Shown: in pieces, positions 37,992 to 59,388 of the stretch
Layout of the letters: each line of letters opens with the position of its first letter
Position numbering within the stretch: position 1 is the stretch's first letter
DNA from: Paludibacteraceae bacterium
GTDB taxonomy: Bacteria > Bacteroidota > Bacteroidia > Bacteroidales > Paludibacteraceae
Length of the DNA stretch: 64,000 bases
NCBI GenBank assembly: GCA_017450435.1
Contig: JAFSTO010000056.1
Span: forward strand, 1 to 64,000
Direction: 5' to 3'
Notes under the pieces: model-generated
Told to the model about the DNA's origin: nothing
Seen by the model: the letters and a program-made list of their open reading frames with translations, nothing else
Database searches by the model: none
Translations under genes and position numbers: made by a program

Positions 37992-38041
37992 TGCCAAAAT
38001 CAACAACTCTTGCCAATATGAACAATTAGTCTGCCAATCTG
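37992..38041. promoter_or_regulatory. Operator direct repeats, TGCCAAT type, upstream of the second locus
   Basis: TGCCAATATG at 38011-38020 and TGCCAATCTG at 38032-38041 lie 21 bp apart, two helical turns, as for AraC-type activators. A weaker TGCCAAAATC at 37992 may be a third contact. The downstream site starts 36 bp before the -7 box. The same spacing and offset occur upstream of 48684. The 45461-48514 regulator is the natural candidate to bind them. Confidence 0.7.
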
Positions 38042-38067
38042 TGCCTGCTATTGTTGACAAAAAGCGG

Positions 38068-38075
38068 TAATTTTG
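38068..38075 (+). promoter_or_regulatory. -7 box of the second locus, no -33 element
   Basis: TAATTTTG at 38068-38075. No TTG is found about 20 bp upstream, which suggests dependence on an activator bound at 38011-38041. Predicted leader about 68 bases. Confidence 0.65.
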
Positions 38076-38149
38076 CAGCAACTAAAATTGTTCTTGTTCT
38101 TCTATCTGCTCGAGCCTGAACATAATGTTGCCGAATTATCATTACTACC

Positions 38150-38905
38150 ATGAAAAAGTTATTATTCTCACACGTACTTCTTTTGCTTGCTGCATTTACT
38201 GTGTCATGCCGCAAGACGATTGATGATTATCCGCTCGCCAATCTCCGTGCTATTTCTTCTTTTGATATAGAGTATTATCACAACTCCGGCAGCAATATTT
38301 TTATTCATCACTACGGTGTGATTGACGAGACTAATCGTTATATTACAGTCAGCGTTCCTACAGATGCTGACCTTTCGCACCTCAGACCGTCTATCAAACT
38401 TTCACCTTGGACAACTTGTCACCCGGGCAACCTCGATGAAGTGGATTTCTCTAACGGAGAGGTGGAATATGAGGTTACGGCTCAAAGTGGGAAAAAAGCA
38501 TATTATAGGGTGTTGATAACAGCCGACTATGTTTATCAGGACGCTAATCTTCTACGTCTGTTCTTATCTGACATTCCTCTTGCTAATGCTGAAGATATTG
38601 ACCCTGACGACCCCACATCCGGTCGCTCAGCCACTCCCGACTCCTATATGGACGGAGCACTGGTACAGCTGCTTTTGGAGAATGGCAGCGGCTATGACCT
38701 CACCCGTCAACGCACTCATCTTGATGTTTCCGCCTCGTCACATAAGTGCTCTATTGAGGTGGCGGAGTTTAATGATGAGAGCAACTACAGACCGTTCCAC
38801 GACCTTGATACAATCAATTATTCTGATACCGTTATCTATCGTATCACAGCCGAAAGCGGTAAGGTAATCAGATACAGGGCTGTCGTAAGAGAGAAGACGG
38901 AGTAG
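38150..38905 (+). CDS. Lipoprotein with Ig-like domains at the head of the second locus
   Basis: 251 residues, lipoprotein signal with VSC at Cys20. Two beta-sandwich segments; the first (GVIDETNRYITVSVPTDADL, LRPSI, VEYEVTAQSGKKAYYRVLI) follows the same pattern as the repeats in the fructan-locus lipoprotein at 7618-8994. Probably a surface glycan-binding accessory of the SusCD pair that follows 36 bases later. Precise family not recognised. Confidence 0.75.
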   Translation: MKKLLFSHVLLLLAAFTVSCRKTIDDYPLANLRAISSFDIEYYHNSGSNIFIHHYGVIDETNRYITVSVPTDADLSHLRPSIKLSPWTTCHPGNLDEVDFSNGEVEYEVTAQSGKKAYYRVLITADYVYQDANLLRLFLSDIPLANAEDIDPDDPTSGRSATPDSYMDGALVQLLLENGSGYDLTRQRTHLDVSASSHKCSIEVAEFNDESNYRPFHDLDTINYSDTVIYRITAESGKVIRYRAVVREKTE

Positions 38906-38941
38906 GTTGAACGCCGTTTGAATGTTGAGTAATCTTGTGCT

Positions 38942-41900
38942 ATGAACCCCAAACCGATAAGTAGTATGAAACGTGCTTTACCTTATATAATTATTTTGTT
39001 GAGTCTTCAGTGTGCAGCTCAGTCTGTCACTATCAGTGGTGTAGTTGAGGATATGGGCGGTGCCGGACCTGTCATTGGAGCCACTGTTCTGGAAAAGGGC
39101 ACCTCTAATGGTACAATAACTGATTTTGACGGGAAATTTACGCTTACCGTGAGGCAAAACGCACAAGTCGAGATTTCCTATATGGGCTACGTCACCAAGA
39201 CGCTGACAGCAAAGAGCGGCAAGCCGCAAAAGATTATGCTTGAGGAGGATAGCAAGCAGTTAGACGAGGTGGTCGTTGTCGGATATGGTACGATGAAGAA
39301 ACGTGATGTTACAGGTTCTATCACCTCATTGGCGGAAAAGACACTTTTGGAAAACAAGCCTATCAATGTGGCATCTGCGCTGCAGGGCAAGGTGTCAGGA
39401 CTCGAAATCGTCACTGCAAGCGAACCCGGTTCAGAGAGCAACTATAGAATCCGCGGAGCCAGTACACTTTCCGCCGAAGGCTCAACGCCGCTGTTTATCG
39501 TCGATGGAACAGAGGTGGATAATATTGACAATATCAACCCGGCGGACATCGCTTCCGTCGAGGTCCTGAAGGATGCGGCATCTGCGGCTATCTACGGCTC
39601 AAAGTCTGCTAATGGTGTTATTATTATCACCACTAAACAAGGTACATCCTCCACGCCGGTTGTCACTGCCGGCTACTCGCTGAAGATTGCCAACCTTGCA
39701 CGCACTTTGCCGCAGATGAACAGACGACAGTGCATCGACTTTGATATCCTGCGCAGTTATCTGGCAGGCTCTTCAGGATTCTCTGTTTATGTGAATGATT
39801 CGCTCAACCCTTCCTTCGGCGACGATAACTTTTATCAAGACATTCTTTTCCGCACAGGGCTGACTCATCAGGCCGATGTCAGTTTGGCGGGCAAAACGGA
39901 TAGAATAAATTACTTCACGTCTATTAGTTTCATGAACGATGACGGTATCGCCCTCAACACTTGGAACAGGCGAGGCACCGCGCGCATCAATATTGATTAT
40001 CGCCCGCACGAGAGGGTAACTATCGGCAGTCGTATTTCGCTCACTATCGGCGCCAATCGGCGAACTCCCGGCGGTGCACGGCAGCGTATATTGGAAAGGC
40101 CTGCGAATATGGCGTTAATATTCCCTGACGGCACCTATGCGCCGGTTATCGCATCACGAAATAACCCTTTGGCCTGGTCTTATATCTGCACAAATAATAA
40201 CAAGTATTATGAGGCCAACATCAACGAGTTTATCGAGTGGCGCATCATCGACGGACTATCCTTTAAGACCTCTATCGCCGCCACTTTCCATCAGAATAAC
40301 TACCGTTATTTCGAACCGGCCATACTTAATAAGAACCAGATAACCGCATCTGCAAACAGAAATACTACATCCTTGCGTTGGACACATGATGATGTGCTCA
40401 CCTTCACACGCACTTTTGCCGACGAACACAATGTGGGTATAATGGCGGGATTCAGTATTCAGGGCTACAAGAGCGAGTATATCAATCTTGCCGTTAACCA
40501 TAATATCTCTGAGGCGATAGAAACAAGCTATGCTTTTAACGAGGTTAACCTCAACAGCACCTACCACTATCAGACGGAGAACCGTATGTCGTCGTTCTTC
40601 GCACGTGTCGGTTATTCATATAAGGGACGTTATCTCTTCAACGCCAATGTCCGTGCCGACGGCAGTAGCCGGTTTGGCGCAAAACGCAAGTGGGGAGTTT
40701 TCCCAAGCGGAAGTGTCGGCTGGAGACTCTCTGACGAGCAATGGATGCAATGGGCGCAACCCGTACTTTCCGATTGCAAGATACGCTATAGTTTCGGTAT
40801 GACAGGTAACCAGACTGCCGGTGACTACGCGGCTATGTCTAAATACTCTACTATCGCCTATGCTGACTATGTGGGCATCTATCCTACTCAACTGGAGAAC
40901 GACCAACTCGGCTGGGAGACTACAATGCAGCATAATCTCGGAGTCGATCTGAGTCTTTTTAACAGTCGCCTCTCTGTGATTATGGACCTCTACAAGAAAG
41001 ACACACGTGATGTCTTGTTCTCAATGAAACTACCGGGCACAACAGGGTTTAGTTCATCATATACCAACATCGGAAATATAAGCAACAAAGGTCTGGAGTT
41101 TACTATCAGCGGACACATGATAAAGACGCGGGACTTCGACTGGACGGCATCTGTCAACTTCGCTTTCAACAGAAACAAACTGTATAATATCCCGGAGGAG
41201 AACAAGAGTATTCAAAACAGTCTGTACATCATCGACAACGACTACACACTCGGCACTATGTACGGCTATCATGCACTGCAGATTTTTCAGTATGACCAAT
41301 CTAACGCTTTTTTTGTTGACGAGGGAGGGGCTTGGCATCAACTCACACCCGTCTTCGATGACAAAGACCGGTTTGTGGAATATCAACTTGACGGCGTCAA
41401 GTATGATGGAGAGGTCAGGCAACTCAGATATGGAACGGATAAGGGGGAAATCTTCCGGGGAGGAGACGTGATGTGGGACGATATCAACCACGATGGTGTT
41501 ATCAATGACGAAGACAGACAGGTCATTGGATGCGGACAACCTGACTTCACTGGCGGATTTACCACCGAGTTTCGCTGGAAAGGACTTCGCGTCTCTGCAT
41601 TCTTCAATTTCTCTGCCGGCGGAAATGTAATCAACGTGTATGAGGCTAATCGTAATGCTCACATCTATGGTACGCTTACACAGGCCAGCCCCGTCTATCT
41701 GGCGCAATCATGGCTCGCACCGGGAGATGTCGCTAAGTACCCTATTCCAACCAACGCCAGAGCTATTGTGCAAAACACAAGACTCAATAGCGACCTCTGG
41801 ATACAGGACGGTTCGTATATACGACTGAAAAATATCAAAGTCAGCTACACACTGCCTAAGAACTGGCTCCGGACACTACACATGCAGGACTGGACTTTCT

Positions 41901-42046
41901 CTGTCATGCTGCAGGACTTCTTTACCTGGACCAACTACGACGGCTTCGACCCGGAGATACCTTCATCAGGATTCGCTATCGGATATGATAACAACTCTTA
42001 TCCGCGTGCCAAGTCCGTACTCTGCAGTATGAATGTTACATTCTAA
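38942..42046 (+). CDS. susC: SusC-type TonB-dependent outer-membrane transporter, second locus
   Basis: 1034 residues. Signal peptide ending CAAQS (ATG 38966 is an equally good start), carboxypeptidase-regulatory-like domain (GPVIGATVLEKGTSNGTITD), LDEVVVVGYGTMKKRDVTGS, plug with PLFIVDGTEV and EVLKDAASAAIYGSKSANG, barrel ending SMNVTF. It imports oligosaccharides released at the cell surface. Uronic-acid-containing oligosaccharides are inferred from the PL8 and GH105 genes. SusD follows 59 bases downstream. Confidence 0.95.
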   Translation: MNPKPISSMKRALPYIIILLSLQCAAQSVTISGVVEDMGGAGPVIGATVLEKGTSNGTITDFDGKFTLTVRQNAQVEISYMGYVTKTLTAKSGKPQKIMLEEDSKQLDEVVVVGYGTMKKRDVTGSITSLAEKTLLENKPINVASALQGKVSGLEIVTASEPGSESNYRIRGASTLSAEGSTPLFIVDGTEVDNIDNINPADIASVEVLKDAASAAIYGSKSANGVIIITTKQGTSSTPVVTAGYSLKIANLARTLPQMNRRQCIDFDILRSYLAGSSGFSVYVNDSLNPSFGDDNFYQDILFRTGLTHQADVSLAGKTDRINYFTSISFMNDDGIALNTWNRRGTARINIDYRPHERVTIGSRISLTIGANRRTPGGARQRILERPANMALIFPDGTYAPVIASRNNPLAWSYICTNNNKYYEANINEFIEWRIIDGLSFKTSIAATFHQNNYRYFEPAILNKNQITASANRNTTSLRWTHDDVLTFTRTFADEHNVGIMAGFSIQGYKSEYINLAVNHNISEAIETSYAFNEVNLNSTYHYQTENRMSSFFARVGYSYKGRYLFNANVRADGSSRFGAKRKWGVFPSGSVGWRLSDEQWMQWAQPVLSDCKIRYSFGMTGNQTAGDYAAMSKYSTIAYADYVGIYPTQLENDQLGWETTMQHNLGVDLSLFNSRLSVIMDLYKKDTRDVLFSMKLPGTTGFSSSYTNIGNISNKGLEFTISGHMIKTRDFDWTASVNFAFNRNKLYNIPEENKSIQNSLYIIDNDYTLGTMYGYHALQIFQYDQSNAFFVDEGGAWHQLTPVFDDKDRFVEYQLDGVKYDGEVRQLRYGTDKGEIFRGGDVMWDDINHDGVINDEDRQVIGCGQPDFTGGFTTEFRWKGLRVSAFFNFSAGGNVINVYEANRNAHIYGTLTQASPVYLAQSWLAPGDVAKYPIPTNARAIVQNTRLNSDLWIQDGSYIRLKNIKVSYTLPKNWLRTLHMQDWTFSVMLQDFFTWTNYDGFDPEIPSSGFAIGYDNNSYPRAKSVLCSMNVTF

Positions 42047-42105
42047 AGCAGGCTGATTTATATAAATCGTGAGTTTTAATAACTACCCGTAAATAGGTAA
42101 ATACA

Positions 42106-43599
42106 ATGAAAAGTTTTGTATCCTGTCCCTTCGTACATCGTGCTTTCGTCCTTTGTACATCATTTGCCGCGTTGTCGCTTATACTCTCATCTTGCCTCAA
42201 CGAGTTCCTTACTGTTGAGCCTCTCGCCGACATAACTACTGAGGGCTATTGGCAATCAGAGAGCGACGTCAGGGCGGAACTCAATGCCGGATATGCGCAC
42301 ATAAAAAACGCTTATAAGACAGGGTTCCTTTATTGGACTGAGGCAAGAAGCGATAATTTCTTGGGAAACGTTACAGGAGGATCGCCGGTGCAGAATATAA
42401 CCCTCAACAAACTCCACTCCAATATCGGAGCCTGCAACTGGAACAACTGGTATAACCTTATCAGTGTCAGCAACTATGCTATTCATTTTATTCCTACTAT
42501 GAACGGCAAGGTTGACGAGTATCGACTGAATCATCTTCTCAGTGAAGCCTATTTCCTGCGTGCCTTTGCCTACTTTAATCTGTATCGTATATGGGGCGAT
42601 GTGCCATTAGTGACCGAACCCGTTTTGCGAAAGTCGGATGTCACCAAACCCGGCAAGACGGATAAGAATAAAATTTTCGAACTGGTGGTCAGTGACCTCC
42701 GGAAAGCCGATTCACTCGTTGACGTCACCGTAAACGAAATCTTTATTTACTCCCCGGCGGCGCTCTATGCCCTCACTACCGATGTGGCTATGTGGGAAAA
42801 GGATTATGAAAAGGCGGTCAACTTTTCCGACAAACTGTTTGCGCTTGGCAAACATACTCTTATTGGGGTGGATTTTGCGGATGTGTGCCGTGACGCTACT
42901 ACTGCCGACAATATTTGGACACTCAAATGGAACTACACCACCGACGGGGAGAACAATATCTGTTCCACGCTTGCCAATAGTGCCAACCCGCTCGTTCCGA
43001 CTTTTGAAATTTTCCAAAAATGGTTTGCATGGGAGCGTGAGTTCTCTGCCCGGGACATGCGCCGGGTTGCCACTATTGACTCCTCCAAGTACAAGACCTT
43101 CACTACGAAGCATGTAATGGCTCTGCCTAATAGCACACAATGCTGGAAATGGTCGCCAGGAGAACATAAGCCGCAGACCGAATATCAGGAGTGCTATATC
43201 CCAATGTACAGGCTCGCCGATATCATTCTTCTGAGAGCCGAAGCACTCAACCGATTGGGGAGAATGGAGGAAGCTGTCACGGAAATGAACAAAGTAAGGG
43301 TAAGAGCCGGACTCCCGGAAAAAGAACTTGCATATTACGCCGGAGATACGGATAAATTAGAAGAGGATATCTGGCAGGAACGCCAGTTCGAACTTTATGC
43401 CGAAGGGCGACGATGGTTCGACCTTATGAGAACAGGTAGGGTGGAAAAGGTTATGAACCACTATTTCGAAGGCTATATCTCCAAGTACGGAGGTGCAGGG
43501 GCGTATCGACTCTTTGAGGAAGAGTGGCAATTATATTGGCCCGTGCATCAGGATATTCTCAACGAAAATGAAAACCTGCACCAGACAGGTGCTTATTAG
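42106..43599 (+). CDS. susD: SusD-type surface glycan-binding lipoprotein, second locus
   Basis: 497 residues, lipoprotein signal (ILSSC then LNEFLTVEPL). SusD helical signatures: YFLRAFAYFNLYRIWGDVPL, LLRAEALNRLGRMEEAV and RQFELYAEGRRWFDLMRTGR. It binds the locus glycan with its SusC partner. Its first 25 codons are almost the same DNA as those of the unrelated 59389-62268 gene, which points to copying of a signal-peptide cassette. Confidence 0.95.
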   Translation: MKSFVSCPFVHRAFVLCTSFAALSLILSSCLNEFLTVEPLADITTEGYWQSESDVRAELNAGYAHIKNAYKTGFLYWTEARSDNFLGNVTGGSPVQNITLNKLHSNIGACNWNNWYNLISVSNYAIHFIPTMNGKVDEYRLNHLLSEAYFLRAFAYFNLYRIWGDVPLVTEPVLRKSDVTKPGKTDKNKIFELVVSDLRKADSLVDVTVNEIFIYSPAALYALTTDVAMWEKDYEKAVNFSDKLFALGKHTLIGVDFADVCRDATTADNIWTLKWNYTTDGENNICSTLANSANPLVPTFEIFQKWFAWEREFSARDMRRVATIDSSKYKTFTTKHVMALPNSTQCWKWSPGEHKPQTEYQECYIPMYRLADIILLRAEALNRLGRMEEAVTEMNKVRVRAGLPEKELAYYAGDTDKLEEDIWQERQFELYAEGRRWFDLMRTGRVEKVMNHYFEGYISKYGGAGAYRLFEEEWQLYWPVHQDILNENENLHQTGAY

Positions 43600-43631
43600 T
43601 CATTATGTCTCATTTTTTATCTTATTCCGAT

Positions 43632-44237
43632 ATGAAACACTCATCGCTCATTATTCTTTCTTTGTGCATCTTCCTTGCTGCGATGCTGTCGTCGTGCTCA
43701 CTCTTCGGTCTTAGCTACGCCTATAGCTACCACAACGAACCCGGCGAGGATTTCCGAAAGCTCAACTACGATGCTTACGAGTTTATCAAGCAACACAGTA
43801 CCGGCGAATTCGCACTTATGTACGAGGCTATCAATAGGGCCGGCATGGAGAGCTATTATCACGACTCCGTTTATACTTTCTTCATTCATAAGGACGTGGT
43901 TTGGGATAAGTTCCTTAGTGATTATCACTACTCGTCAATAAGCGAAGTGCCTGTGCAAACACTACGCAACTACCTTCTTCGGAGCATCATTCCCGGAAAG
44001 TATCTGAGTAGTGATATTTCTGCACCAATCTTTGTCCAAACGCTTGACCCCAATGTGACGATGAGGCTCTATAAAACGATTGTGGCGGCTACTTCATCAC
44101 AGAACCTCAATGCACTAAGAGCCGGATGGACTAATGCTAACGGCAAAATCAACCAAGTCGGCTGCACCACTTCTAATCTCGAATGTACCAACGGCGTCAT
44201 TCACGTAATGGGTGCACGATTCACTTTCATGTCATAA
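43632..44237 (+). CDS. FAS1 (fasciclin)-like lipoprotein
   Basis: 201 residues from ATG 43632 (43605 possible), lipoprotein signal LSSC. The mature part resembles one fasciclin domain: FALMYEAINRAGMESYYHDS, VYTFFIHKDVVWDKFL, VPVQTLRNYLLRSIIPGKYL and the terminal NGVIHVMGARF. FAS1 domains mediate adhesion or glycan/protein binding. Position directly after SusD suggests a SusE-like surface role. The assignment rests on pattern, not a search. Confidence 0.72.
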   Translation: MKHSSLIILSLCIFLAAMLSSCSLFGLSYAYSYHNEPGEDFRKLNYDAYEFIKQHSTGEFALMYEAINRAGMESYYHDSVYTFFIHKDVVWDKFLSDYHYSSISEVPVQTLRNYLLRSIIPGKYLSSDISAPIFVQTLDPNVTMRLYKTIVAATSSQNLNALRAGWTNANGKINQVGCTTSNLECTNGVIHVMGARFTFMS

Positions 44238-44263
44238 TTCATAATTCATCAATAAACTCTGCT

Positions 44264-45442
44264 ATGAACAATTCACCTTTCACCTTTCATCGTTTATCAA
44301 TCATCATCATTTCTTGTGCCTGCCTTGCCGCATGTGCTTCTTCAGAACATACCCGGTATTTTTCTGACGATTTGTCAACTGAGGCTGTCACGTGTGTCAC
44401 TGATGCTGCTGTTGCATGGCAGGTGACAAACTATGAAAACACCGGCAATAAGCGTAACCGCCCCAGAACCAACGACGTCAACTGGGCGGATGCTATCTTT
44501 CTTACCGCTGCTTATGAGTGGGCAGGTATGAGAGAAGATACCGCTACTCTGCTATGGGTGAATACGTTAGCACGGAAAAACGATTATCGCTTGCCGATGG
44601 GTGTGCATGTCTATCACGCCGATAATCTTATTGTCGGCATGCTTTATGCTGACATGTTTGAACAAACAGGAGACGAACGCCTGTTGCAGCAACCCCAGGA
44701 GAGACTTGAATATATTGTCAGACACCCTTCGCAATGTGACCTTTTCTCTGATGACAACGACCAAACTTATTATTATAAGCAGCGATGGTCCTGGTGCGAC
44801 GCCCTCTTTATGGCGCCACAGGTCTTTGCTCGATACGCTGCGCTCTGTGACAATCCGCAACTCCTGCATTTTATGGACAAGGAATACCGGGCTACCGTTG
44901 ACTATCTCTATTCACCTGAATATAAACTCTTCTTCAGAGACAGCAACTACTTCAACAAACATGAACCGAACGGCAAACCTGTCTTCTGGGGCAGAGGAAA
45001 CGGATGGGTGCTCGCAGGACTCGCTAAACTTATTCCTCTTCTGCCGCAAGACTTTGACGGACGAAGCGATTATATCCGACTCTATCGTGACATGATAAGC
45101 ACTGTTGTACAACTGCAATCATCTGACGGACACTGGTACGTAAGTATGCTCGACCCGAACGCCTATCCCGCACCCGAGATGAGCAGTACTGCCTTTTTCT
45201 GTTATGCGCTCTGGTGGGGTATCAACAGCGGCATCATTGACAAGAACACTTACCTCGTGCCTGCAACAAGAGCATGGCAGGCTATCGTGAGAAACGTTCA
45301 CAAAAATGGAATGTTAGGCTCTGTGCAGGCGGTGGGAGAAAAACCCGAAGCTATAACAACCGGCATGACCGAGGTGTACGGACCGGCTGCTATGGTCTAT
45401 GCTGCACAACAGATTCTGATTTATCTTGAAAATATCCGCTAA
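44264..45442 (+). CDS. GH105 unsaturated glycuronyl hydrolase
   Basis: 392 residues from ATG 44264, lipoprotein signal (CLAAC). (alpha/alpha)6 barrel of GH105: NWADAIFLTAAYEW, DNLIVGMLYADM, RWSWCDALFMAPQVFARYA, VFWGRGNGWVLAGLAKLIP and a C-terminal GMTEVYGPAAMV. It removes the unsaturated uronic acid that lyases leave at the non-reducing end of oligosaccharides. Here it would finish the products of the two PL8 lyases. GH105 members act on unsaturated galacturonyl or glucuronyl ends; which one applies is not visible. Confidence 0.9.
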   Translation: MNNSPFTFHRLSIIIISCACLAACASSEHTRYFSDDLSTEAVTCVTDAAVAWQVTNYENTGNKRNRPRTNDVNWADAIFLTAAYEWAGMREDTATLLWVNTLARKNDYRLPMGVHVYHADNLIVGMLYADMFEQTGDERLLQQPQERLEYIVRHPSQCDLFSDDNDQTYYYKQRWSWCDALFMAPQVFARYAALCDNPQLLHFMDKEYRATVDYLYSPEYKLFFRDSNYFNKHEPNGKPVFWGRGNGWVLAGLAKLIPLLPQDFDGRSDYIRLYRDMISTVVQLQSSDGHWYVSMLDPNAYPAPEMSSTAFFCYALWWGINSGIIDKNTYLVPATRAWQAIVRNVHKNGMLGSVQAVGEKPEAITTGMTEVYGPAAMVYAAQQILIYLENIR

Positions 45443-45460
45443 TGTAAAACCTGTCAACCT

Positions 45461-48400
45461 ATGCTGAATAGTGTGTGCAACATATCATCCGCTCGCTGTC
45501 GCTTAATCGGCACTTGCAACCCTGTACGCTTTCCCTCCGCGCTCGGACGACTATGTCTGCTGATGATATGCCAACTCACACTCTGCTCTTTCCTGCCATA
45601 TTTCCACGACTTGTCTGACCAACTCCACGCCGGACATAGCAGTGTTACTGCCATCGACGAAGATACTTGCGGATTCACTTGGCTCGCTATGGGGGATAAT
45701 ATAGTTAGAACCGACGGAGTAAATGTCAGGCATTATGCCGACAAATTCGCACAACAGGGATTCTGGCTTATCTCTTTCCACTCCGTTTGTTGCACTCTCG
45801 ACGGAAATATCTATGCGGCATCTTCAAGAGGATTATTCCAATATGTGCCCGAAACGGATAACTTCATCCTGCTCTATGACCGGCCAATAAGAAACATCTA
45901 CGAGGACAAACACCAAAATCTCTGGCTAAGCAACGGCTTCGTCGTCTTCTATCACACGCGCTCACGCACCGCAACGACGATAGAGGATAACGGACGTGAG
46001 ATACAAGGACAACTGTTTACCTCACCAACCGCCCCCTTTGTCTATATCATCACCAACGAAGCACTACTCACTATCTCACCGCCGCAACAACCTCTGTTAA
46101 ACGCTCAGCAACTCGACAAGCAGACAATTCACTCTTCACCGCACCCCTTCCTCCATAAGCAGGTAAGAGCTCTCGCACTCGCCGATTCTACTCTTTTTGT
46201 CCTTACTAAAAGCAGCGGACTGTGGAAACAGCAGGACAATCGGTTTACACTCGTCAATCAGCTGCTATACGACGGCAGACCTGTTAATGCAAGGCAACTC
46301 GTCTCCGATAATGACACCATCATCTGGGCAGGTACAATGCAGGGACTGTTCCGCATAAACTTAAACACACTTGCCTGCCGGCTCTTCAGACAAACATTCG
46401 AACCCGGGGCTCTCGTGAACAATAGCGTTCAGGCACTGTTCCTCGATAGCAGACATAACCTTTGGGTCGGAACCTATGCCGGAGGACTCTGTGTCCTTAA
46501 CCAAAACGATTACAACAAACAAAATAACCATTCCTTCGCTGACTATGGAGTGGTGAATATGCCAATCAGTGCACTCCTTCCCGCTAATGATACTCTCTGG
46601 TTGGGAACAGAGGGAAACGGACTGTTCTGCTACGTCAAAAACAAAGGCCTGCTCAGACGCTTTGCGCATTCTGACGACCCGTCTTCTCTCCCCTCTGACA
46701 ATATCAAAGCACTTTCAAGGCAAGGTGATTACCTTTGGGTCGCTACCTATCTCGGCGGACTCTCTTGCCTCAATATCTCTACAGGCAAGTGTGATAACAC
46801 TCTGATGACTAATTCTGATAACCGCTTGATAAGCCGGCAGGTGTATAATATCGTAACCGACAGCTCCGGCGGATTGTGGGCGGTCTATCAGGACATCACC
46901 AACGTCGTGTCTTGTGTCAATACCGCCGCTAAGCCTTACTCTGTTGTCAATTATCATATTCCCGACCCGGAAGGAGAACATGTTTCTACAAGACTCTATT
47001 ACCTCGCTGTCGGCAACGACTGTCTCTGGCTCGCCACTACTACTTCACTCCATTGCTTCTCGCTCTCCGAGCGCACTTATCTCTTCTCTGCTACACCACA
47101 GACACATGCCTTGATACAGGATATTTGTTATGACCCCGCCTGCAGGTGTCTTTGGTTAGCCACTCTCAATAATGGGTTGATGAGGTTTAATATTACCACA
47201 CACTCTTTCTCAACCATTCCACTGCCTTTCGAAAAAGGCAATGACGGAATACGCAAACTCTGTCTGGTCGGCAATACCTTATATCTCTCAACTGACGGGC
47301 AAGGTGTGTTCGCGCTCAATACACTCAACTGCAACATGGCGGCGGTCGCCGATGTCTCCAATATCTTCACCATCACACCTAATCTCGCTGACTCAACACT
47401 TATTCTCGGCGCCGGCGGACAATGGACAACCGTTAGTATGCAGCGTGCCGCAACAACCGATGCCCATCCGGCGCAACCGGCTACCTTCATCGCCGATGTC
47501 GCCGTTAACAACCAGTCGGTCTATCTCAACGATACTACATACTATCAAAAGATAAAACAACTCCTAAACGCACATATCTCACTCGCACATAATGAGAATA
47601 ACCTCTCCCTCACTCTGTCTAACGGAGCTTATGTGCCTTCTCAAGCATGCCATTTCCGATTTCGCTTGTTACCATCACGACGAAACAGAAGAGTAGCACC
47701 GGCGGACACTGTCTGGAGAGAACTGCCGAACACACAACGAACCGTCAATCTACTGCAACTCAATACGGGAACATATCTGTTCCAAGCACAAGCGTCAAAC
47801 GACATCATTCATTGGGGCAATACTCTTTCCCTGAAGATTACTGTCAAACCCGTGTGGTGGATGAGTAACGCTGCTATCTGTTGCTACGTTTTTGCCGGCG
47901 CTATGATTGTCGCCTATATCATCTTCCTGCTCATATCGCATTATCGGCTTCAGCGCTCATTGTTTGAAACAAATATACGCCGGCAAGCAGAAGAAAAAGC
48001 CTCAAGGGCTAAAGTGCTCTTTTTTACAGATGTGAATAAGGAACTCAAAGCACCTTTGATTAACCTGAAGAAAAACGTTAGTGCTGAACAAGCTATATAC
48101 GTGCAGCAGATGCTCGACATCATGGACTCTTATACACAACGGTATTGTATCGATATAGGAACCAACCCCGTCGCCACAATGCAGCAACAACAACTTGACA
48201 AACTCACTACGATGATAAGTGAACGTATGCTTGACGGACATGTGGATATTGACCGCCTTGCTGCGGATATGGGGATGTCAAGACGAAAACTATTCTCTTT
48301 TGTTAAAGACATGACTGGTAAGGCTCCTATTGAGTATATCCGCTCTTTCCGACTGCAAACAGCAGCCAAGCTGATGCTGGAGCAGGGATTGACGGTCAAA

Positions 48401-48514
48401 GAAGCTATGGATAAGGTCGGTATTGAAAGCCAGAGCTATTTTGTTAAAGCCTTTAGAGCTGAGTTCGGTGACACACCCGGGGCTTTCGTCACTAAGCAGG
48501 GGAATAAGCATTAA
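45461..48514 (+). CDS. Membrane-spanning regulator: Reg_prop/Y_Y_Y sensor - TM - AraC HTH, kinase lost
   Basis: 1017 residues. Membrane anchor (~30-47), two-propeller sensor of ligand-binding repeats (GLFQYVPETDNF, LWVGTYAGGLC, LWLGTEGNGLF), Y_Y_Y-like sandwich (~700-795), membrane helix (~804-826), AraC HTH (~910-1012; MSRRKLFSFVK, SQSYFVKAFRAEFGDTPGAF). This is the hybrid two-component (HTCS) layout without ATPase and receiver. A relic of the HisKA box remains, FFTDVNKELKAPL at 854-866, with Lys860 where FFTNISHEFRTPL has the phospho-accepting His. It therefore cannot signal by phosphotransfer. It is the likely activator of both transcription units of this locus. Confidence 0.88.
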   Translation: MLNSVCNISSARCRLIGTCNPVRFPSALGRLCLLMICQLTLCSFLPYFHDLSDQLHAGHSSVTAIDEDTCGFTWLAMGDNIVRTDGVNVRHYADKFAQQGFWLISFHSVCCTLDGNIYAASSRGLFQYVPETDNFILLYDRPIRNIYEDKHQNLWLSNGFVVFYHTRSRTATTIEDNGREIQGQLFTSPTAPFVYIITNEALLTISPPQQPLLNAQQLDKQTIHSSPHPFLHKQVRALALADSTLFVLTKSSGLWKQQDNRFTLVNQLLYDGRPVNARQLVSDNDTIIWAGTMQGLFRINLNTLACRLFRQTFEPGALVNNSVQALFLDSRHNLWVGTYAGGLCVLNQNDYNKQNNHSFADYGVVNMPISALLPANDTLWLGTEGNGLFCYVKNKGLLRRFAHSDDPSSLPSDNIKALSRQGDYLWVATYLGGLSCLNISTGKCDNTLMTNSDNRLISRQVYNIVTDSSGGLWAVYQDITNVVSCVNTAAKPYSVVNYHIPDPEGEHVSTRLYYLAVGNDCLWLATTTSLHCFSLSERTYLFSATPQTHALIQDICYDPACRCLWLATLNNGLMRFNITTHSFSTIPLPFEKGNDGIRKLCLVGNTLYLSTDGQGVFALNTLNCNMAAVADVSNIFTITPNLADSTLILGAGGQWTTVSMQRAATTDAHPAQPATFIADVAVNNQSVYLNDTTYYQKIKQLLNAHISLAHNENNLSLTLSNGAYVPSQACHFRFRLLPSRRNRRVAPADTVWRELPNTQRTVNLLQLNTGTYLFQAQASNDIIHWGNTLSLKITVKPVWWMSNAAICCYVFAGAMIVAYIIFLLISHYRLQRSLFETNIRRQAEEKASRAKVLFFTDVNKELKAPLINLKKNVSAEQAIYVQQMLDIMDSYTQRYCIDIGTNPVATMQQQQLDKLTTMISERMLDGHVDIDRLAADMGMSRRKLFSFVKDMTGKAPIEYIRSFRLQTAAKLMLEQGLTVKEAMDKVGIESQSYFVKAFRAEFGDTPGAFVTKQGNKH

Positions 48515-48572
48515 GGTCATTTTTGAATATTGCAAATTGCTGTTTTGAATTTTTTTGTATATTTTGTTATTT

Positions 48573-48637
48573 TGCCAATTTGAGCAAAACAATTGCAATT
48601 TAAACGCCGTTCAAGTTGCGTTTAAATGCTAATTTTG
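48573..48637 (+). promoter_or_regulatory. Operator repeats and -7 box of the secreted-protein unit
   Basis: TGCCAATTTG at 48573-48582 and TGCAATTTAA at 48594-48603 are 21 bp apart; the second starts 36 bp before the -7 box TAATTTTG (48630-48637), exactly as upstream of 38150. TGCAAATTGC at 48531 lies 42 bp (2 x 21) further up. No -33 TTG is present. An inverted repeat ATTTAAACGC / GCGTTTAAAT (48598-48627) overlaps the site. This second promoter should drive 48684-62268. Confidence 0.68.
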
Positions 48638-48683: not shown

Positions 48684-50594
48684 ATGAAAAACGCTCAACT
48701 ACCATTCCTGTTGATGACATTCTTTGTTCTTCCATCTGTCGCCTCTGCCTCAGACTACGAGCGCAATGAGACAACTCATTATTTCGACTACACCGGTACG
48801 CCCCTTGACACCGACCTTGAGGTCGATTTCTCCGAGCTCACATCAGACATGGTCGCCTATTCAAGCGGCACCACTCATTCCGAGACCATCCTCGAGTTCC
48901 AAGGCTTGGGGTTGTATAAGTACTGCTATTACGCATCACGAACGTTGGGCGAAAATACGTATGCACCGTTGTTGTGGAATAGTGGTAAGAGTTATGTTGC
49001 TGGTGAAGAAAAAAACAACAAAGATGTGGAAAACGTATATGACCTACCTGCAGTGTATTTTCCTGAATTTAAGGACGGAATTAGGTACATCGCTTTTGAG
49101 GGTTGGGGAGTTAACAATCCTGCCAATATTACATTTATGAAGCAAGCTGATGATGGAACATGGTCAAATATAGCAACAAAGAGTCTATCAAAAAACTCTT
49201 ATACACGTGACACAATTTTTATTAACAACCGAAATGTAAAGCGGGTAATGTTTCATCGCATTACGGCAAATAACGCATACCAATATATAACAAAAATCAC
49301 CGTTGCTACTTATTCTCCAAAGGAATGGATATACAATTCCACCTCAGGCAGATACGACTATACCGGTACACCGCAAACAGACACTCTTGTCGTGGATTTT
49401 TCAGGTCTGACAGAGAGAGAACATAAAACACATGATGGTAGTAACGTTTTCGCTGAAGAAACACTTGCGGAGTTTAATCATGTAGGCTTGTATAAATTTG
49501 GTTGGTACTCCTCGAGAACGTGCGAGGATGTAGCTTATTCACCTGTGCTGTGGTCTTGCGGTAATTCTTACTATAATGGCGTTTCAACTAACAACACCGC
49601 GATAACTGTGGTCTGTCGCCCTGCAATTTATCTACCAACGATTCAGAACGGCATCAAGAAGATTATTATTGAGGGTTGGACTAACGGCGCAACTGCCTAT
49701 CCTTTAAACATAATGGCCAAACAGAACGGAACATGGAAAAACTTGAATTCAATAAATTCTTCATATCCCGGAACTGTCTCTCTTCAAGGAAATAAATATT
49801 CAAGAGATACAATAGTGATTGACAATACAGAGGTGAAGGATGTGTTGTTTACACGTAGTAGCACTGCATACCAGTTTATAACCAAGATAACGATTATTCC
49901 TATTCCAAATATTGTTATTGCCGAAGATGCCGACAATAGCGAACTGTTGGCAGAATATAACGGAGAGAAGGTAAATCTGACAGTTCATCGTACCATCAAA
50001 GCAGGAATGTACAACACCTTCTGTCTGCCATGTGATGTGAGTGGTAGCAGGCTGAAGGAGGCGTTAGGAGTCAGTGAGTGTTCGCTCAAGTGGTTTAATG
50101 CTGCAAGTATGGCGGGCGAGGCAATAGACATGCAGTTCACGACAGCATCATCTGTTCAAGCCGGAGCGCCATATCTTATCAAGACAAACGAGGACGTTAC
50201 AGAGTCGTTTATACTGCGGGATGTGGTAATTAAAAATACTACTCGTCATATTGACAAGCCTTCAGGCACGCCTTTGGTTAAGTTCTACGGAACTTTCAAT
50301 CCGACACCTCTCTCTACCTCACGCAACACCCTTGTTCTCGGTGCCAACAGTACCCTTTATTACGTTGACCACGACCTGACGATGGACGGTATGCGCGGCT
50401 ATTTCCAACTGACAGGAACGGCTGCCGCTGCTGCACCGCAAGTGCGTATCAGGTATATGGAGGATACGGCAACCGATACAGAGGCGGCTGAGGGTAACCC
50501 GCAAAATAGCATAAAAGTGATACGCGACGGACAGTTGCTGATTATCCGCGACGGCGTAATGTATAACACTTTAGGTCAAACAATTAACAAGTAA
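48684..50594 (+). CDS. Secreted protein with two copies of an unrecognised ~200-residue domain (copies 1-2)
   Basis: 636 residues, signal peptide to VASAS (~23), no lipobox. Two tandem copies (~30-213 and ~225-410) share YTGTP-x-DT-L-VDFS, a GLYK(Y/F)xxY(A/S)SRT motif, PxLWxxG(K/N)SY, P(A)(V/I)Y(F/L)P...GI, a Gly-Trp and a closing YQ(F/Y)ITKIT. The pattern suggests a beta-sandwich, possibly carbohydrate-binding. A third part (~425-600) is a different beta domain (TIKAGMYNTFCLPCDVSGSR). The C-terminus KVIRDGQLLIIRDGVMYNTL then GQ is the shared tail. First gene after the 48630 promoter. Function unknown; glycan capture or adhesion is inferred from context. Confidence 0.75.
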   Translation: MKNAQLPFLLMTFFVLPSVASASDYERNETTHYFDYTGTPLDTDLEVDFSELTSDMVAYSSGTTHSETILEFQGLGLYKYCYYASRTLGENTYAPLLWNSGKSYVAGEEKNNKDVENVYDLPAVYFPEFKDGIRYIAFEGWGVNNPANITFMKQADDGTWSNIATKSLSKNSYTRDTIFINNRNVKRVMFHRITANNAYQYITKITVATYSPKEWIYNSTSGRYDYTGTPQTDTLVVDFSGLTEREHKTHDGSNVFAEETLAEFNHVGLYKFGWYSSRTCEDVAYSPVLWSCGNSYYNGVSTNNTAITVVCRPAIYLPTIQNGIKKIIIEGWTNGATAYPLNIMAKQNGTWKNLNSINSSYPGTVSLQGNKYSRDTIVIDNTEVKDVLFTRSSTAYQFITKITIIPIPNIVIAEDADNSELLAEYNGEKVNLTVHRTIKAGMYNTFCLPCDVSGSRLKEALGVSECSLKWFNAASMAGEAIDMQFTTASSVQAGAPYLIKTNEDVTESFILRDVVIKNTTRHIDKPSGTPLVKFYGTFNPTPLSTSRNTLVLGANSTLYYVDHDLTMDGMRGYFQLTGTAAAAAPQVRIRYMEDTATDTEAAEGNPQNSIKVIRDGQLLIIRDGVMYNTLGQTINK

Positions 50595-50601
50595 CACTGC
50601 C

Positions 50602-50730
50602 ATGAAGACGTATATCACACCACAGACCACGATACTAACAACGACTCCTTCCGCTATTATCTGTACCAGCGTTAGAGGTAACGCCCTACAAGGCGGAGAC
50701 TTCGGCATAGGAGATATGTATATTCTATGA
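50602..50730 (+). CDS. Small 42-residue protein between the secreted-domain genes
   Basis: ATG 50602 to TGA 50730. It starts MKTYITPQTTILTTTPSAII and ends GDFGIGDMYIL. Bacteroidota often carry such tiny genes (MK-x-Y-x-x-P start, Ser/Thr-rich middle, Gly/Asp-rich end) next to secreted-protein genes. It begins 7 bases after the preceding stop and ends 42 bases before the next gene, so it fits the operon. Function unknown; existence inferred from position and pattern. Confidence 0.5.
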   Translation: MKTYITPQTTILTTTPSAIICTSVRGNALQGGDFGIGDMYIL

Positions 50731-50772
50731 TAAGAACCCAAGCTGCTAATAATATACCTAAAATATACCGCT

Positions 50773-52320
50773 ATGAAAAAACTATTTCTCTTTGTAGGTC
50801 TTCTGACCGCTTGTGCGGCACATGCCGCTCTTTACACATTGTCAGATGACGGTTATGCCTATACCGGCACGCCTGTTGACTCGTTCCGCGTGGATTTCAC
50901 CACATGGGCAGCTGATTCGTTGCCTGCCTCGTGGCTTGACGCAGATGCAGCACATGAGGCCGGCGGAATGGCGTTCGTCAAGTGGACGCTCACCAACCGC
51001 TCTGTCAAGATTGACGGTGTGTCGTCCACCATGCCGACGGCGTTTAACAACGGCACAACAGCCGACCCGACACCCGTGAAGAACAACGCCACCTCTAACA
51101 AACCGCGTATCTACCTGCCTACCACTACACGTGGAGTGAAGGCTATTCATGCGCGGATAGCGTGTGCCAAGGCACGGTCGCTGGCTATTAATTATAAAGA
51201 CGACAACCATTCCGCTTGGGCATATACCTCAGCGCAAGTGCTTTCCGCACAGGCTTCGTGGAATGTGGCTGAGGTTAGTTGCGAACTGAACACTGTAGGT
51301 GAAACAAGTATCTTTCTCCAATATGGCAGCACCGACTATTTCGCTATCCTCAGTCTTGAACTTGAGCTTGTCGGCAATCAATCCGTCAGTCTTGATATGC
51401 ACAGTCTGCTGTTGAACACCGACGCGCAACGTTCACTCACTGCTACACCGATACCTGCCGACCTCCCACTCTCATGGAGTTCCACTGACGAAACGGTGTG
51501 CACCGTAGCTGATGGTGTAGTGACAGCTGTTGGACCTGGCACTGCCGATATCATCGTTAGTGCCGGAGACGCGGCAGCGGATACCTGTCATGTGACAACG
51601 GTGGCGCATAACAACTATGCCGTCGGTGAGGACGGTTATTGGCATTATACCGGCGAACCGGTGAACGAACTCGATGTTGAGTTCAGCAACCTCTCCGAGG
51701 AGAATTCTTATTACACTACCGGCAATATACACGCTGACTTGCTTTGGAATTTCGCGGGAGTAGGACTATATAAATGGGGATACTTACAGTCGCGTTCATG
51801 CGCAGGAGAGGAGTACGGACCCATGCTCTGGAATAGCGGCAATAGCGAGAACGGAACCAACTTCGCCATTAAAGACTCCAACCCCGACAAACTGCCTGCT
51901 ATCTATCTGCCGGAAATAGCAAACGGTATCAAGACACTTACCGTGGAGGGATGGACCAACAACAACGGACGAAGCCTCATGATTGACGTTGAGAACGAAG
52001 AAGGAAACTGGCAAAACATTACTGCGTTTAACCCCGGTTATGAAAGCTATTATCTCACACTTGATGGCAATAGTTATTCAACCGCTACCTTCAACGTCTC
52101 TGACCGAAATATAACACGTATGAGACTCTATCGTAATAGCAACGACTATCAGTTCATCACACGTATCACCGTTGAACCGATGCCCGAAGTGACCGACCCT
52201 ACCGCTGTTGAACAACTGACAGCTGATAAACACGGCGCCGAAAAGCTTATGCGAAACGGACAATTGGTCATTCTTCGTGGTGAGAATACCTACAACGCAA
52301 TAGGACAAACAGTAAAGTAA
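50773..52320 (+). CDS. Secreted protein with two unrecognised domains and a BIG2-like domain (copies 3-4)
   Basis: 515 residues, signal peptide ending AAHAA. Domain order: divergent copy 3 (~20-198; DDGYAYTGTPVDSFRVDFTT, PRIYLP), a bacterial Ig-like BIG2 domain (~203-280; LSWSSTDETVCTVADGVVTA), then copy 4 (~283-475; GYWHYTGEPVNELDVEFSNL, GLYKWGYLQSRSC, GPMLWNSGNSENG, DYQFITRITVE). Ends with the shared tail KLMRNGQLVILRGENTYNAI, GQTVK. Copy 4 is close to the first domain of the next gene. No catalytic motif recognised. Confidence 0.75.
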   Translation: MKKLFLFVGLLTACAAHAALYTLSDDGYAYTGTPVDSFRVDFTTWAADSLPASWLDADAAHEAGGMAFVKWTLTNRSVKIDGVSSTMPTAFNNGTTADPTPVKNNATSNKPRIYLPTTTRGVKAIHARIACAKARSLAINYKDDNHSAWAYTSAQVLSAQASWNVAEVSCELNTVGETSIFLQYGSTDYFAILSLELELVGNQSVSLDMHSLLLNTDAQRSLTATPIPADLPLSWSSTDETVCTVADGVVTAVGPGTADIIVSAGDAAADTCHVTTVAHNNYAVGEDGYWHYTGEPVNELDVEFSNLSEENSYYTTGNIHADLLWNFAGVGLYKWGYLQSRSCAGEEYGPMLWNSGNSENGTNFAIKDSNPDKLPAIYLPEIANGIKTLTVEGWTNNNGRSLMIDVENEEGNWQNITAFNPGYESYYLTLDGNSYSTATFNVSDRNITRMRLYRNSNDYQFITRITVEPMPEVTDPTAVEQLTADKHGAEKLMRNGQLVILRGENTYNAIGQTVK

Positions 52321-52341
52321 AACCAAGAAAAACATACTAAT

Positions 52342-54366
52342 ATGAAAAAGTGTTTGTTATCACTAATTATCGTTCTCTCTACCGCCGCCGTCTCGGCACA
52401 GGCTACATACTCCTTGGGGAATGACGGATATTATCACTATCAAGGACCGGCTGTCACCGGTGTAGCTGTTGATTTTGCTGACATGACTTCCGCTGACGAA
52501 GCTTACTCCGAGGGAACAACACATGCCGACCGGCTGATGAATTTTCAAGGACTGGGAATGTATAAGTTCTGCTACCTTCAGTCACGCAAATGCGGCACGG
52601 CAACAGACGACCCCGTTTACGGACCACTTGCTTGGAACAACGGTTCTTCCGAGAACGGAAAGAACTATGATATTAAGACATCCAATCCCGACAAACTGCC
52701 CGCTATATATTTTCCGGAGATAGAAGGAGGTGTGAAATACGTAATAACCGAGGGCTGGTGCTACAACCAAAACAGGTCACTCATCTTCCAATGCGAGAAC
52801 GCCAACGGAGAATGGGTGGATGTCAACACCGTTGCTACATCGATGAACACTTACTATCAGACTATGCGAAAGAATATTTATACTCGCGACACTCTGGTAG
52901 TAAACAGTTCAGCCGTCAGGAAGCTCCGACTTTATCGTAATAGCAACGAATACCTGTTCTTGTGCAATATTCAGGTCATCTCTATGACCGACAATGGCAC
53001 ACTTGTGCCTGTCACCGCCGTGGTGCTCAATCAGAGCGCTGCATCCATGGAGGTGAGTCAGACGCTGCAGCTGAAAGCTACCATCAAGCCCTTCAACGCT
53101 TCCGTACAGACGGTGACATGGAGCAGCAGCGACAATGAAGTGGCAACAGTTGACGACAACGGCGTAGTCACCGCTATCGCTGCCGGCAGCGCTACTATCA
53201 CCGCTTCTTGCGACGGACAAACGGCGACATGTGTGCTCACAATAACAGGAGAGAAGCCTGTCACATCCATCACTCTGGACCAGACAACGCTGCGTGTTGC
53301 GGAAGGCAAATATGCGCGACTCACTGCCACCGTTCTGCCAACCGACGCAAGTAACCCTAACGTTACTTGGACATCGTCCAAAGAGAATGTGGCTACGGTG
53401 GAAGGAGGACTCATTCATGCCATCGCAGAGGGAAACACTACCATCACCGCTACCGCCGGCAACTGCTCTGCTACATGTCAGCTGGAGGTCTATTGGGAAA
53501 TGCCGGAAGCAACCGACTTCATCCTTGCTGAATACTATCCGGGATGCTTCTACTACGAATGGTGGGGCGATGCACTTACGAAGCCCCTGTATATCGACTT
53601 TACCAAGTGGACATACGACAGCCTGCCGGACCCGCAGTGGCCGGACTTTGCGACAGCACGTTCTATGGGACACTCAGGAGAACTGGTACAACGGGATAAT
53701 ATCGGCTTCTATCAGTGGATGATATACGAGGGACGCTCGCTCTCTTCTGACGGATATGTCTCGGAAACCGGCGCTACTACAGCTAATGTCCTTTTCAACG
53801 GAGGATATAGTTATATCAACGGCGTTAGAGAAGGAGCAGGAGCCGTTGCGCTATGTTATCGACCGAGAATCTATTTCCCAACTTTCAAGGCAGGACTACA
53901 CCAGGTGCGCATAACAGGCGTCAGCCACAGCAACACACGCTCAATGTTCGTACAATATAAGGATATGACACTCAGCTCTCTCGGGCAAGACAGCGCTATC
54001 ATGGCAGGGCTACCGGCTCTGCAGTTCGGAAACGTCTGGGACGAGTACGTAATTGACATCACCAACGAGGGCATAACCGATGTCAACCTCTCACGTAACA
54101 GCACTGACTTCTGGTTCATTGGTAGCATTGAGCTTATACCTTATGATGCATCTGCTTTGGAACACGTTGCTGACACAAGGTATGAGGCAAGAGCGGTTAC
54201 AGGTGGAATACTCATAAACGCTAAACAAACGGTGCAGGTACCTGTCTATAGCCTTACCGGCTATCTACTGCATACCATCACCGCACTGCCTCAGCAACAC
54301 ACCTTCATACCTATGCCGCAGGGTGTCTATCTGGTAGGTAAAGAAAAGGTGGTTGTCGGAAACTAA
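52342..54366 (+). CDS. Secreted protein with two unrecognised domains, two BIG2 domains and a T9SS tail (copies 5-6)
   Basis: 674 residues, signal peptide to VSAQ (~20). Copy 5 (~22-215; GYYHYQGPAVTGVAVDFADM, GMYKFCYLQSRKC), two BIG2 Ig-like domains (~222-302 and ~305-384; VTWSSSDNEVATVDDNGVVT), divergent copy 6 (~400-600; YIDFTKWTYDSLPDPQWPDF, PRIYFPTFKAGLHQVRITG). Residues ~612-674 form a canonical type IX CTD: VPVYSLTGYLLHTI, then GVYLVGKEKVVV. So this protein should cross the outer membrane by the T9SS and be anchored or released at the surface. Role in binding the locus glycan is inferred. Confidence 0.78.
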   Translation: MKKCLLSLIIVLSTAAVSAQATYSLGNDGYYHYQGPAVTGVAVDFADMTSADEAYSEGTTHADRLMNFQGLGMYKFCYLQSRKCGTATDDPVYGPLAWNNGSSENGKNYDIKTSNPDKLPAIYFPEIEGGVKYVITEGWCYNQNRSLIFQCENANGEWVDVNTVATSMNTYYQTMRKNIYTRDTLVVNSSAVRKLRLYRNSNEYLFLCNIQVISMTDNGTLVPVTAVVLNQSAASMEVSQTLQLKATIKPFNASVQTVTWSSSDNEVATVDDNGVVTAIAAGSATITASCDGQTATCVLTITGEKPVTSITLDQTTLRVAEGKYARLTATVLPTDASNPNVTWTSSKENVATVEGGLIHAIAEGNTTITATAGNCSATCQLEVYWEMPEATDFILAEYYPGCFYYEWWGDALTKPLYIDFTKWTYDSLPDPQWPDFATARSMGHSGELVQRDNIGFYQWMIYEGRSLSSDGYVSETGATTANVLFNGGYSYINGVREGAGAVALCYRPRIYFPTFKAGLHQVRITGVSHSNTRSMFVQYKDMTLSSLGQDSAIMAGLPALQFGNVWDEYVIDITNEGITDVNLSRNSTDFWFIGSIELIPYDASALEHVADTRYEARAVTGGILINAKQTVQVPVYSLTGYLLHTITALPQQHTFIPMPQGVYLVGKEKVVVGN

Positions 54367-54429
54367 AGTGAAAACCACAAACGTTCAACCCTGAACGTCT
54401 GACCACTAACGTGAACCCCCAACAAGGTT

Positions 54430-57000: not shown

Positions 57001-57016
57001 ACACTTACTCGTAATC

Positions 57017-59374: not shown

Positions 59375-59388
59375 ATAAGGTATATACA

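Follow-up and report, generated by a model that had tools for sequence, protein, structure and literature searches.

A kinase-less regulator of the hybrid two-component type in a Paludibacteraceae polysaccharide utilization locus and its predicted, register-conserved operators

The first 64,000 nucleotides of contig JAFSTO010000056.1 from a Paludibacteraceae bacterium (GenBank assembly GCA_017450435.1; this whole stretch is referred to as the window) contain a polysaccharide utilization locus in which a regulator gene (45461-48514) sits between two operons, the first starting at 38150 behind promoter P1 and the second at 48684 behind promoter P2. We consider it likely, judging from sequence comparison, that P1 and P2 are activator-dependent promoters of this one locus run by the regulator encoded between them, a protein of the hybrid two-component system (HTCS) type that has lost the catalytic part of its kinase together with its receiver and apparently kept its ancestral operators. 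The predicted operator consists of TGCCRAAAAGAGCA-like or TGCC(R)AA..GAGCA-like half-sites, two helical turns apart. Seven promoters in four genomes share one register, with half-sites that start 57 bp and 36 bp upstream of the –7 box: P1 and P2 of the window, P1 of another species of the genus (G104), and P1 and P2 of two genomes of another family (G564 and G343).

Two promoters with the same half-site register

The promoter elements of the window are listed below. The strength of a half-site is given as the fraction of all window positions, on both strands, that score as high with a motif trained on the promoters of the other family.

37992..38005, + strand: extra half-site TGCCAAAATCAACA of P1, 76 bp 5′ of the P1 –7 box and 19 bp before the site at 38011 (fraction 2.0e-4)
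38011..38024, + strand: distal half-site of P1, starting TGCCAATATG, 57 bp 5′ of the –7 box (fraction 2.0e-4)
38032..38045, + strand: proximal half-site of P1, starting TGCCAATCTG, 36 bp 5′ of the –7 box (fraction 0.0089, top 0.9%)
38068..38075, + strand: –7 box TAATTTTG of P1, without a TTG at 20-bp spacing
48573..48586, + strand: distal half-site TGCCAATTTGAGCA of P2, named TGCCAATTTG in the earlier note, 57 bp 5′ of the –7 box (fraction 7.8e-5)
48594..48607, + strand: weak proximal half-site of P2, starting TGCAATTTAA, 36 bp 5′ of the –7 box (fraction 0.26)
48598..48627, no strand: 10-bp perfect inverted repeat ATTTAAACGC (48598-48607) / GCGTTTAAAT (48618-48627), overlapping the weak P2 half-site
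48630..48637, + strand: –7 box TAATTTTG of P2, identical to that of P1, without a TTG at 20-bp spacing

The sites of P1 and P2 are of the TGCC or TGC kind, and the six elements that an earlier note on this DNA had placed at 38011, 38032, 38068, 48573, 48594 and 48630 were correct in letters and coordinates. The shared geometry that it had proposed stood as far as the 57/36 layout of both promoters is concerned, but its site at 48594 scored at chance level and it had overlooked the third site at 37992. The latter is an 87% repeat of 38011-38025 over 15 nt according to the repeat finder, has a counterpart (TGCCGAAAAGAGCA) in the same place in G104 (L041:10380), and forms with 38011 a 19-bp pair that is stronger than the 21-bp pair 38011/38032.

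The published consensus (PMC7366714, in its available part) comprises a –7 TAnnTTTG and a –33 TTTG. Twelve TAnnTTTG boxes upstream of window open reading frames passed our filters, and a TTG with a 20-bp spacer precedes 7 of the 10 other boxes versus neither of those of P1 and P2, which agrees with the earlier observation that both promoters lack a –33 TTG that is usual elsewhere. In both promoters a TTG, noted by eye, starts 14 bp before the –7 box (38054-38056 and 48616-48618), a position in which G104 has none. A genome-wide pattern search returned P1 and P2 alone: the pattern TGCNAATNTG-N(40-52)-TANNTTTG, derived from the P1 and P2 sites themselves, has these two matches in the 2.65-Mb genome and none in the reversed control.

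Orthologous loci keep the register

Among 178 genus genomes (own included), the regulator is matched at E <= 1e-20 in one of the 177 others, namely G104, with 42-43% identity and the same locus gene order except for the absence of a gene for a 636-aa protein. Across the order, 13 of an even sample of 393 genomes (own included) match at E <= 1e-25, the 12 others as open frames of 1136-1396 aa. Loci were retrieved for the best five of these matches, and for three more (G498, G531 and G555) that served in the general test described below. G564 and G343 are syntenic with the window, with genes for a DUF5018-like protein, SusC (59%), SusD, a fasciclin-domain protein, GH88, a further protein (heparinase-like in G564) and an HTCS, followed by a gene weakly similar to that at 50773; PL8 is also present in G343. 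A search for related loci among the genome contigs returned only one, which was distant.

In a tree of 51 helix-turn-helix (HTH) domains, whose bootstrap is not fully settled, the window and G104 regulators group together (100/99) and are joined by G564 and G343 (98/88), then by G310 and G456 (95/86) and then by G282 (100/95). Pfam confirmed the kinase domains for G564 and G343 alone, and G310, G456 and G282 have frames of 1321-1391 aa. The kinase-less state would therefore most simply be a loss within this genus. Eleven genus genomes (L109-L121 minus L112 and L118) carry HTCS-type frames of ~1185-1259 aa that form their own HTH branch (11 rows, 98/99); the L109 and L110 frames have kinase and receiver domains.

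The earlier note had made its case depend on whether the paired sites are kept at orthologous loci, and they are: operon 1 is preceded by the 57/36 sites in all three genomes (G104, G564 and G343), and in the last two a further set follows the regulator gene. Two direct-repeat half-sites ~21 bp apart are found in P1 and in the orthologous promoters, the second copy in P2 being at chance level. The strong copies in G564 and G343 read TGCC(A/G)AAAAGAGC(A/T), with two changes in P2 of G343. When the eight half-sites of G564 and G343 served as the motif and a generic –7 term was added, P1 ranked 1 and P2 ranked 3 among 127,872 window positions, and P1 of G104 ranked 1 among the 37,872 positions of its 19-kb locus. 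In ~733 kb of retrieved DNA, a scan that excludes seven overlapping loci, P1 was outscored by the four training promoters alone. Moreover, out of 437 combinations of spacing and distance, 21/36 gave the highest sum both over P1 and P2 and over these two with G104.

The 13-mer TGCCRAAAAGAGC has six matches in the whole genomes of G104, G343, G564 and the window's own organism (G000), versus none in the reversed control. Four of the six lie in these promoters, the G104 match being its –76 site; the others are in G343:C10, in a stretch without promoter-like layout that we read as coding, and in G564:C120. The best G104 site occupies the place of the third site of P1, for which P2 has no counterpart.

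A scan of loci of more distant HTCSs from this clade with a motif from six promoters revealed clear repeats in G310 before SusC (21/37, score 34.0) and before GH88 (21/36, score 21.7). Counting G310, G456 and G282, the register would reach 12 promoters of 7 genomes, 9 of the 12 belonging to the first set or scoring above background. A general HTCS rule of a fixed 36-bp distance to the –7 box was unsupported, as this distance was scattered over 124 TAnnTTTG boxes taken from loci with HTCSs and from related ones. In the same boxes, 21 bp was the lag with the highest mean self-similarity, with a z of 2.7 versus other lags when the boxes before seven named genes were removed (117 boxes left). Looser patterns were rejected as noise: TGCCRAA-N50-52-TANNTTTG gave 1 own-genome match versus 2 in the reversed control, and TGCCRAA-N25-52-TANNTTTR gave 76 and 64 matches in G343 and G564 versus 59 and 45 in the control. 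A relaxed form of the window pattern had no match in G104.

A regulator with a relic of its kinase

The regulator and the parts that matter for its reading are as follows.

45461..48514, + strand: regulator of 1017 aa with a periplasmic propeller sensor, membrane span, histidine-kinase relic and AraC-type HTH
48020..48058, + strand: relic of the phospho-acceptor motif, FFTDVNKELKAPL (residues 854-866), in which Lys860 replaces His, aligned to FFTNITHDFKTPL of full-length orthologs
48257..48487, + strand: HTH_18 DNA-binding domain (residues 933-1009, Pfam E 2e-19)

Its sensor matches Reg_prop (Pfam, E 1.8e-18), the Y_Y_Y domain is matched in the G104 ortholog and not in the window protein, and a membrane span was assigned by eye to about residues 802-827. 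The best solved structure match to the regulator profile is 4a2l, which we take to be the sensor of BT4663. HATPase_c and receiver domains were not found by Pfam in either the window regulator or its G104 ortholog, and HisKA had no Pfam match in the former at E up to 0.001 or in the latter at E up to 1, whereas HATPase_c, receiver, HisKA and HTH_18 are all present in the G564 and G343 regulators. Compared with a canonical HTCS, the protein has the sensor and the C-terminal AraC-type HTH and is without HisKA with its His, HATPase_c and receiver; with sensor, span and DNA-binding domain in one protein and no kinase or receiver match, it has the make-up of a one-component transmembrane regulator. 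The earlier note's description of a kinase-less sensor regulator of AraC type was borne out.

The alignment locates the loss. The window and G104 proteins track the full-length HTCSs up to FFTxxxxxxKxPL, and the match restarts at the YxxxYxIDxG linker before the HTH, so that ~350 residues comprising most of the kinase and the whole receiver are missing; in both proteins the phospho-acceptor His is replaced by Lys. The relic EEKAxRAKVLFFTxVNKELKAPL is identical in the two species except at two positions, and is likely to be a coupling element. As for the receiver-facing Asp of the DNA-binding domain (Gao et al.), whose loss was looked for in the kinase-less proteins, the G564 and G343 HTCSs are also without the consensus Asp of many other rows, a column assignment that is uncertain.

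Two regulators encoded on contigs C13 and C56 of the window's own genome (L085:6415-9177 and L086:8540-11368) have a propeller-Y_Y_Y-AraC organization without kinase or receiver matches, and no kinase relic was seen in them. These and other kinase-less propeller regulators (in G008 and G059; Pfam) fall on other branches of the HTH tree, implying that this architecture has had several origins or is of old standing elsewhere.

Domain loss, synteny and a conserved register are what the sequences show; from them we infer binding, activation, a ligand and a signal path. An oligosaccharide from the PL8/GH88 pathway would bind the periplasmic propeller, and the signal would be relayed by the membrane span and by what is left of the kinase dimerization domain. 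A pair of DNA-binding domains would thereby be positioned to engage both half-sites as well as RNA polymerase, with the regulator bound as a dimer on one DNA face. The proximal half-site extends from 36 bp to 23 bp upstream of the –7 box and ends just upstream of the –33 element position; the regulator may substitute for the –33 contact with RNA polymerase.

Weighing the evidence

Several results weigh against a common operator read by this regulator at both promoters. The training sites in G564 and G343 were picked by eye with the window's TGCC and the 57/36 layout in mind, so that the comparison was not fully blind, and three of the seven boxes are one base off TAnnTTTG (TTACTTTG in G104, TAATTTTA in P2 of G564 and of G343). 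Without the –7 term, P1 dropped to rank 3 and P2 to rank 168 in the window, and the total score of P2 was only 17th among the best 25 in the ~733 kb. Per promoter, 21/36 ranked only 2 (P1), 2 (P2) and 19 (G104) among the 437 geometries, because the 19-bp pair or shifted readings compete. The exact 13-mer TGCCRAAAAGAGC was absent from the window's own genome in the whole-genome search, and no P2-like promoter was recognisable in G104. The candidates at the expected places in G456 (14.1 and 13.8) and G282 (15.2) are within background, which reaches 15.7 in comparable loci; a minus-strand match in the G456 locus itself scores 15.7. Finally, the half-site at 48594 is by itself at background level, 0.26 of window positions scoring as high, and the best 21/36 scores of other PL8 loci in the genus (up to 14.6) exceed that of P2 (13.15). 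Only by an after-the-fact reading would TTGC-AATTTAAAC at 48593, taken with a 1-base gap, resemble TTGCCAATTTGAGC.

The weakness of 48594, together with the failure to recognise P2 in G104, would also fit a coincidental likeness of P2 in AT-rich intergenic DNA, P1 alone being regulated and P2 answering another factor through the ATTTAAACGC/GCGTTTAAAT palindrome. This palindrome falls within a 30-nt inverted repeat (I1, repeat finder) and is possibly the site of another factor. We nevertheless regard such a coincidence as unlikely: the 48573 site is in the best 0.008% of window positions and lies exactly 57 bp before the box, where ~0.001 such matches would be expected over the 12 boxes examined, and in G564 and G343 the promoters that directly follow the regulator gene carry 57/36 sites. 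We judge it slightly less probable still that a different regulator encoded in the genome, of AraC or HTCS type, reads the sites while the neighbouring one acts elsewhere. Four other propeller-type regulator genes (Reg_prop matches) do exist in the genome, but motif, register and regulator orthologs occur together in G104, G564 and G343. Moreover, the PL8 control loci (G104 C5, G012 and G106, those of G108, G127 and G064 being left out) stay below P1 (22.3) and P1 of G104 (19.5), albeit not below P2. The sites' company with the regulator's orthologs and the HTH clade (98/88) favour the earlier note's proposal that the AraC-type protein encoded between the promoters would read both.

More weight is due to a different view of the working unit, which we keep as a tentative alternative: the sites would bind this regulator, but in the genus through the 19-bp pair 37992/38011 or a three-site array, with 38032 being secondary. 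The two upstream sites of P1 and of G104 fit the motif better than the 36-bp site, a 19-bp spacing yields the top single-promoter scores there, and it is the 19-bp pair, not the 21-bp one, that the repeat finder picks up; yet the –76 site is without a match in P2 and in the four G564/G343 promoters, and in those four the –36 position is filled. That the regulator is a decayed, functionless pseudo-regulator appears very improbable. Its kinase and receiver have disappeared and a Lys stands in place of the phospho-acceptor His, but the frame is open in two species with an overall identity of 42%, NKELKAPL of the relic is identical and the HTH is much better conserved, which looks like purifying selection. 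Activation of both P1 and P2 by the regulator between them, through half-sites at 57 and 36 bp, is thus the reading that we prefer.

The locus and a second sensor regulator

The two operons flanking the regulator gene were annotated with Pfam.

38150..45442, + strand: operon 1, encoding a DUF5018-like protein, SusC, SusD, a fasciclin-domain protein and GH88
48684..62268, + strand: operon 2, encoding a 636-aa protein, two Big_2 proteins, two PL8 lyases and a DUF5107/TPR protein

The DUF5018 assignment is a match under the Pfam curated cut-off. The gene order of operon 1 is the same in G104, G564 and G343. The first gene of operon 2 (48684-50594), for which the G104 locus offers no counterpart, matched nothing in Pfam or NCBIfam at E up to 0.001; its 636-aa product is partly similar to the proteins that in G104 correspond to its Big_2-type neighbours. 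Going by enzyme family, two PL8 lyases and GH88 suggest a glycosaminoglycan substrate, such as hyaluronan or chondroitin, and the locus probably digests animal-type polysaccharides.

Elsewhere in the window, a second kinase-less sensor regulator of 501 aa (1045-2550) is encoded directly before another SusC gene; it combines a periplasmic-binding-protein domain (Peripla_BP_4) with an AraC HTH and, judged by eye, a likely membrane span. Upstream of that SusC gene (2723), a near-palindrome at 2568-2640 has 36-nt arms that are 78% complementary and 1 nt apart, and contains CATGTTGCAAAATATG / CATATTTTGCAACATG; it is a candidate operator of the 501-aa regulator.

Relation to known systems

The operator type itself, direct repeats ~21 bp apart, is already known. 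In the available part of their study, Ravcheev et al. (2013, PMC3878776) predicted that HTCS operators are direct repeats with a mean spacing of 21 bp, interpreted as same-face dimer sites, and the present sites resemble those of Bacteroides in being two such repeats before genes of the regulator's own locus. For the SusR-like regulators treated in that study the site centres lie 67 or 77 bp apart, which makes the present operators HTCS-like and not SusR-like. The Bacteroides HTCSs have kinase and receiver, and that part of the paper states neither a fixed distance to the –7 box nor the motif letters for this clade, whereas the window regulator is without both domains. Specifically, the glycosaminoglycan HTCSs BT3334 and BT4663 of B. 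thetaiotaomicron share a Reg_prop-type sensor and an AraC HTH with the window regulator and differ from it by a full kinase and receiver (PMC3878776, same part). The earlier note's promise of a binding motif thus held in that a concrete motif is predicted for the clade, but was less novel than implied, the direct-repeat type having been published in 2013. What is new here is the predicted motif, its register to the –7 box in the clade, and a one-component derivative that apparently kept the operators of its ancestor. Neither a kinase-less HTCS derivative, in the titles and abstract openings of the literature searched, nor a stated distance of HTCS operators to the –7 box, in those among the matches listed, was found described.

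According to the available text of Gao et al. (2024, PMC11253607), the receiver inhibits the DNA-binding domain in most HTCSs, and some may not need phosphorylation, such as BT4236 with Gln for His. BT4236 is like the window regulator in its replaced phospho-acceptor His and its proposed phosphorylation-independent control, but it is described as an HTCS with the receiver motif CSIP, whereas in the window regulator both the receiver and the catalytic portion of the kinase are physically absent. Transmembrane transcription regulators (TTRs; PMC10269533, as far as its text was available) are likewise membrane-tethered one-component regulators, and Neisseria Rsp, a PilS receptor joined to a PilR DNA-binding domain, is cited there when two-component descent is raised. 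Here, in contrast to the TTRs of that text, a kinase relic is visible, and syntenic full-length orthologs and their operators can be compared.

On a wider evolutionary reading we are evenly divided: a phosphorelay regulator may have become a one-component regulator in one lineage with operators and register kept, the relic coupling the membrane to the DNA-binding pair, so that phosphorylation would never have set the operator geometry. The analysis yields a concrete prediction of motif and spacing for a class of regulators whose 2013 sites were, in the available part of PMC3878776, predictions awaiting experiment. It also offers a natural before/after pair, in which syntenic loci with similar operators carry either a full HTCS or its kinase-less form, and in which the regulator without a receiver must be held off in some way other than receiver inhibition.

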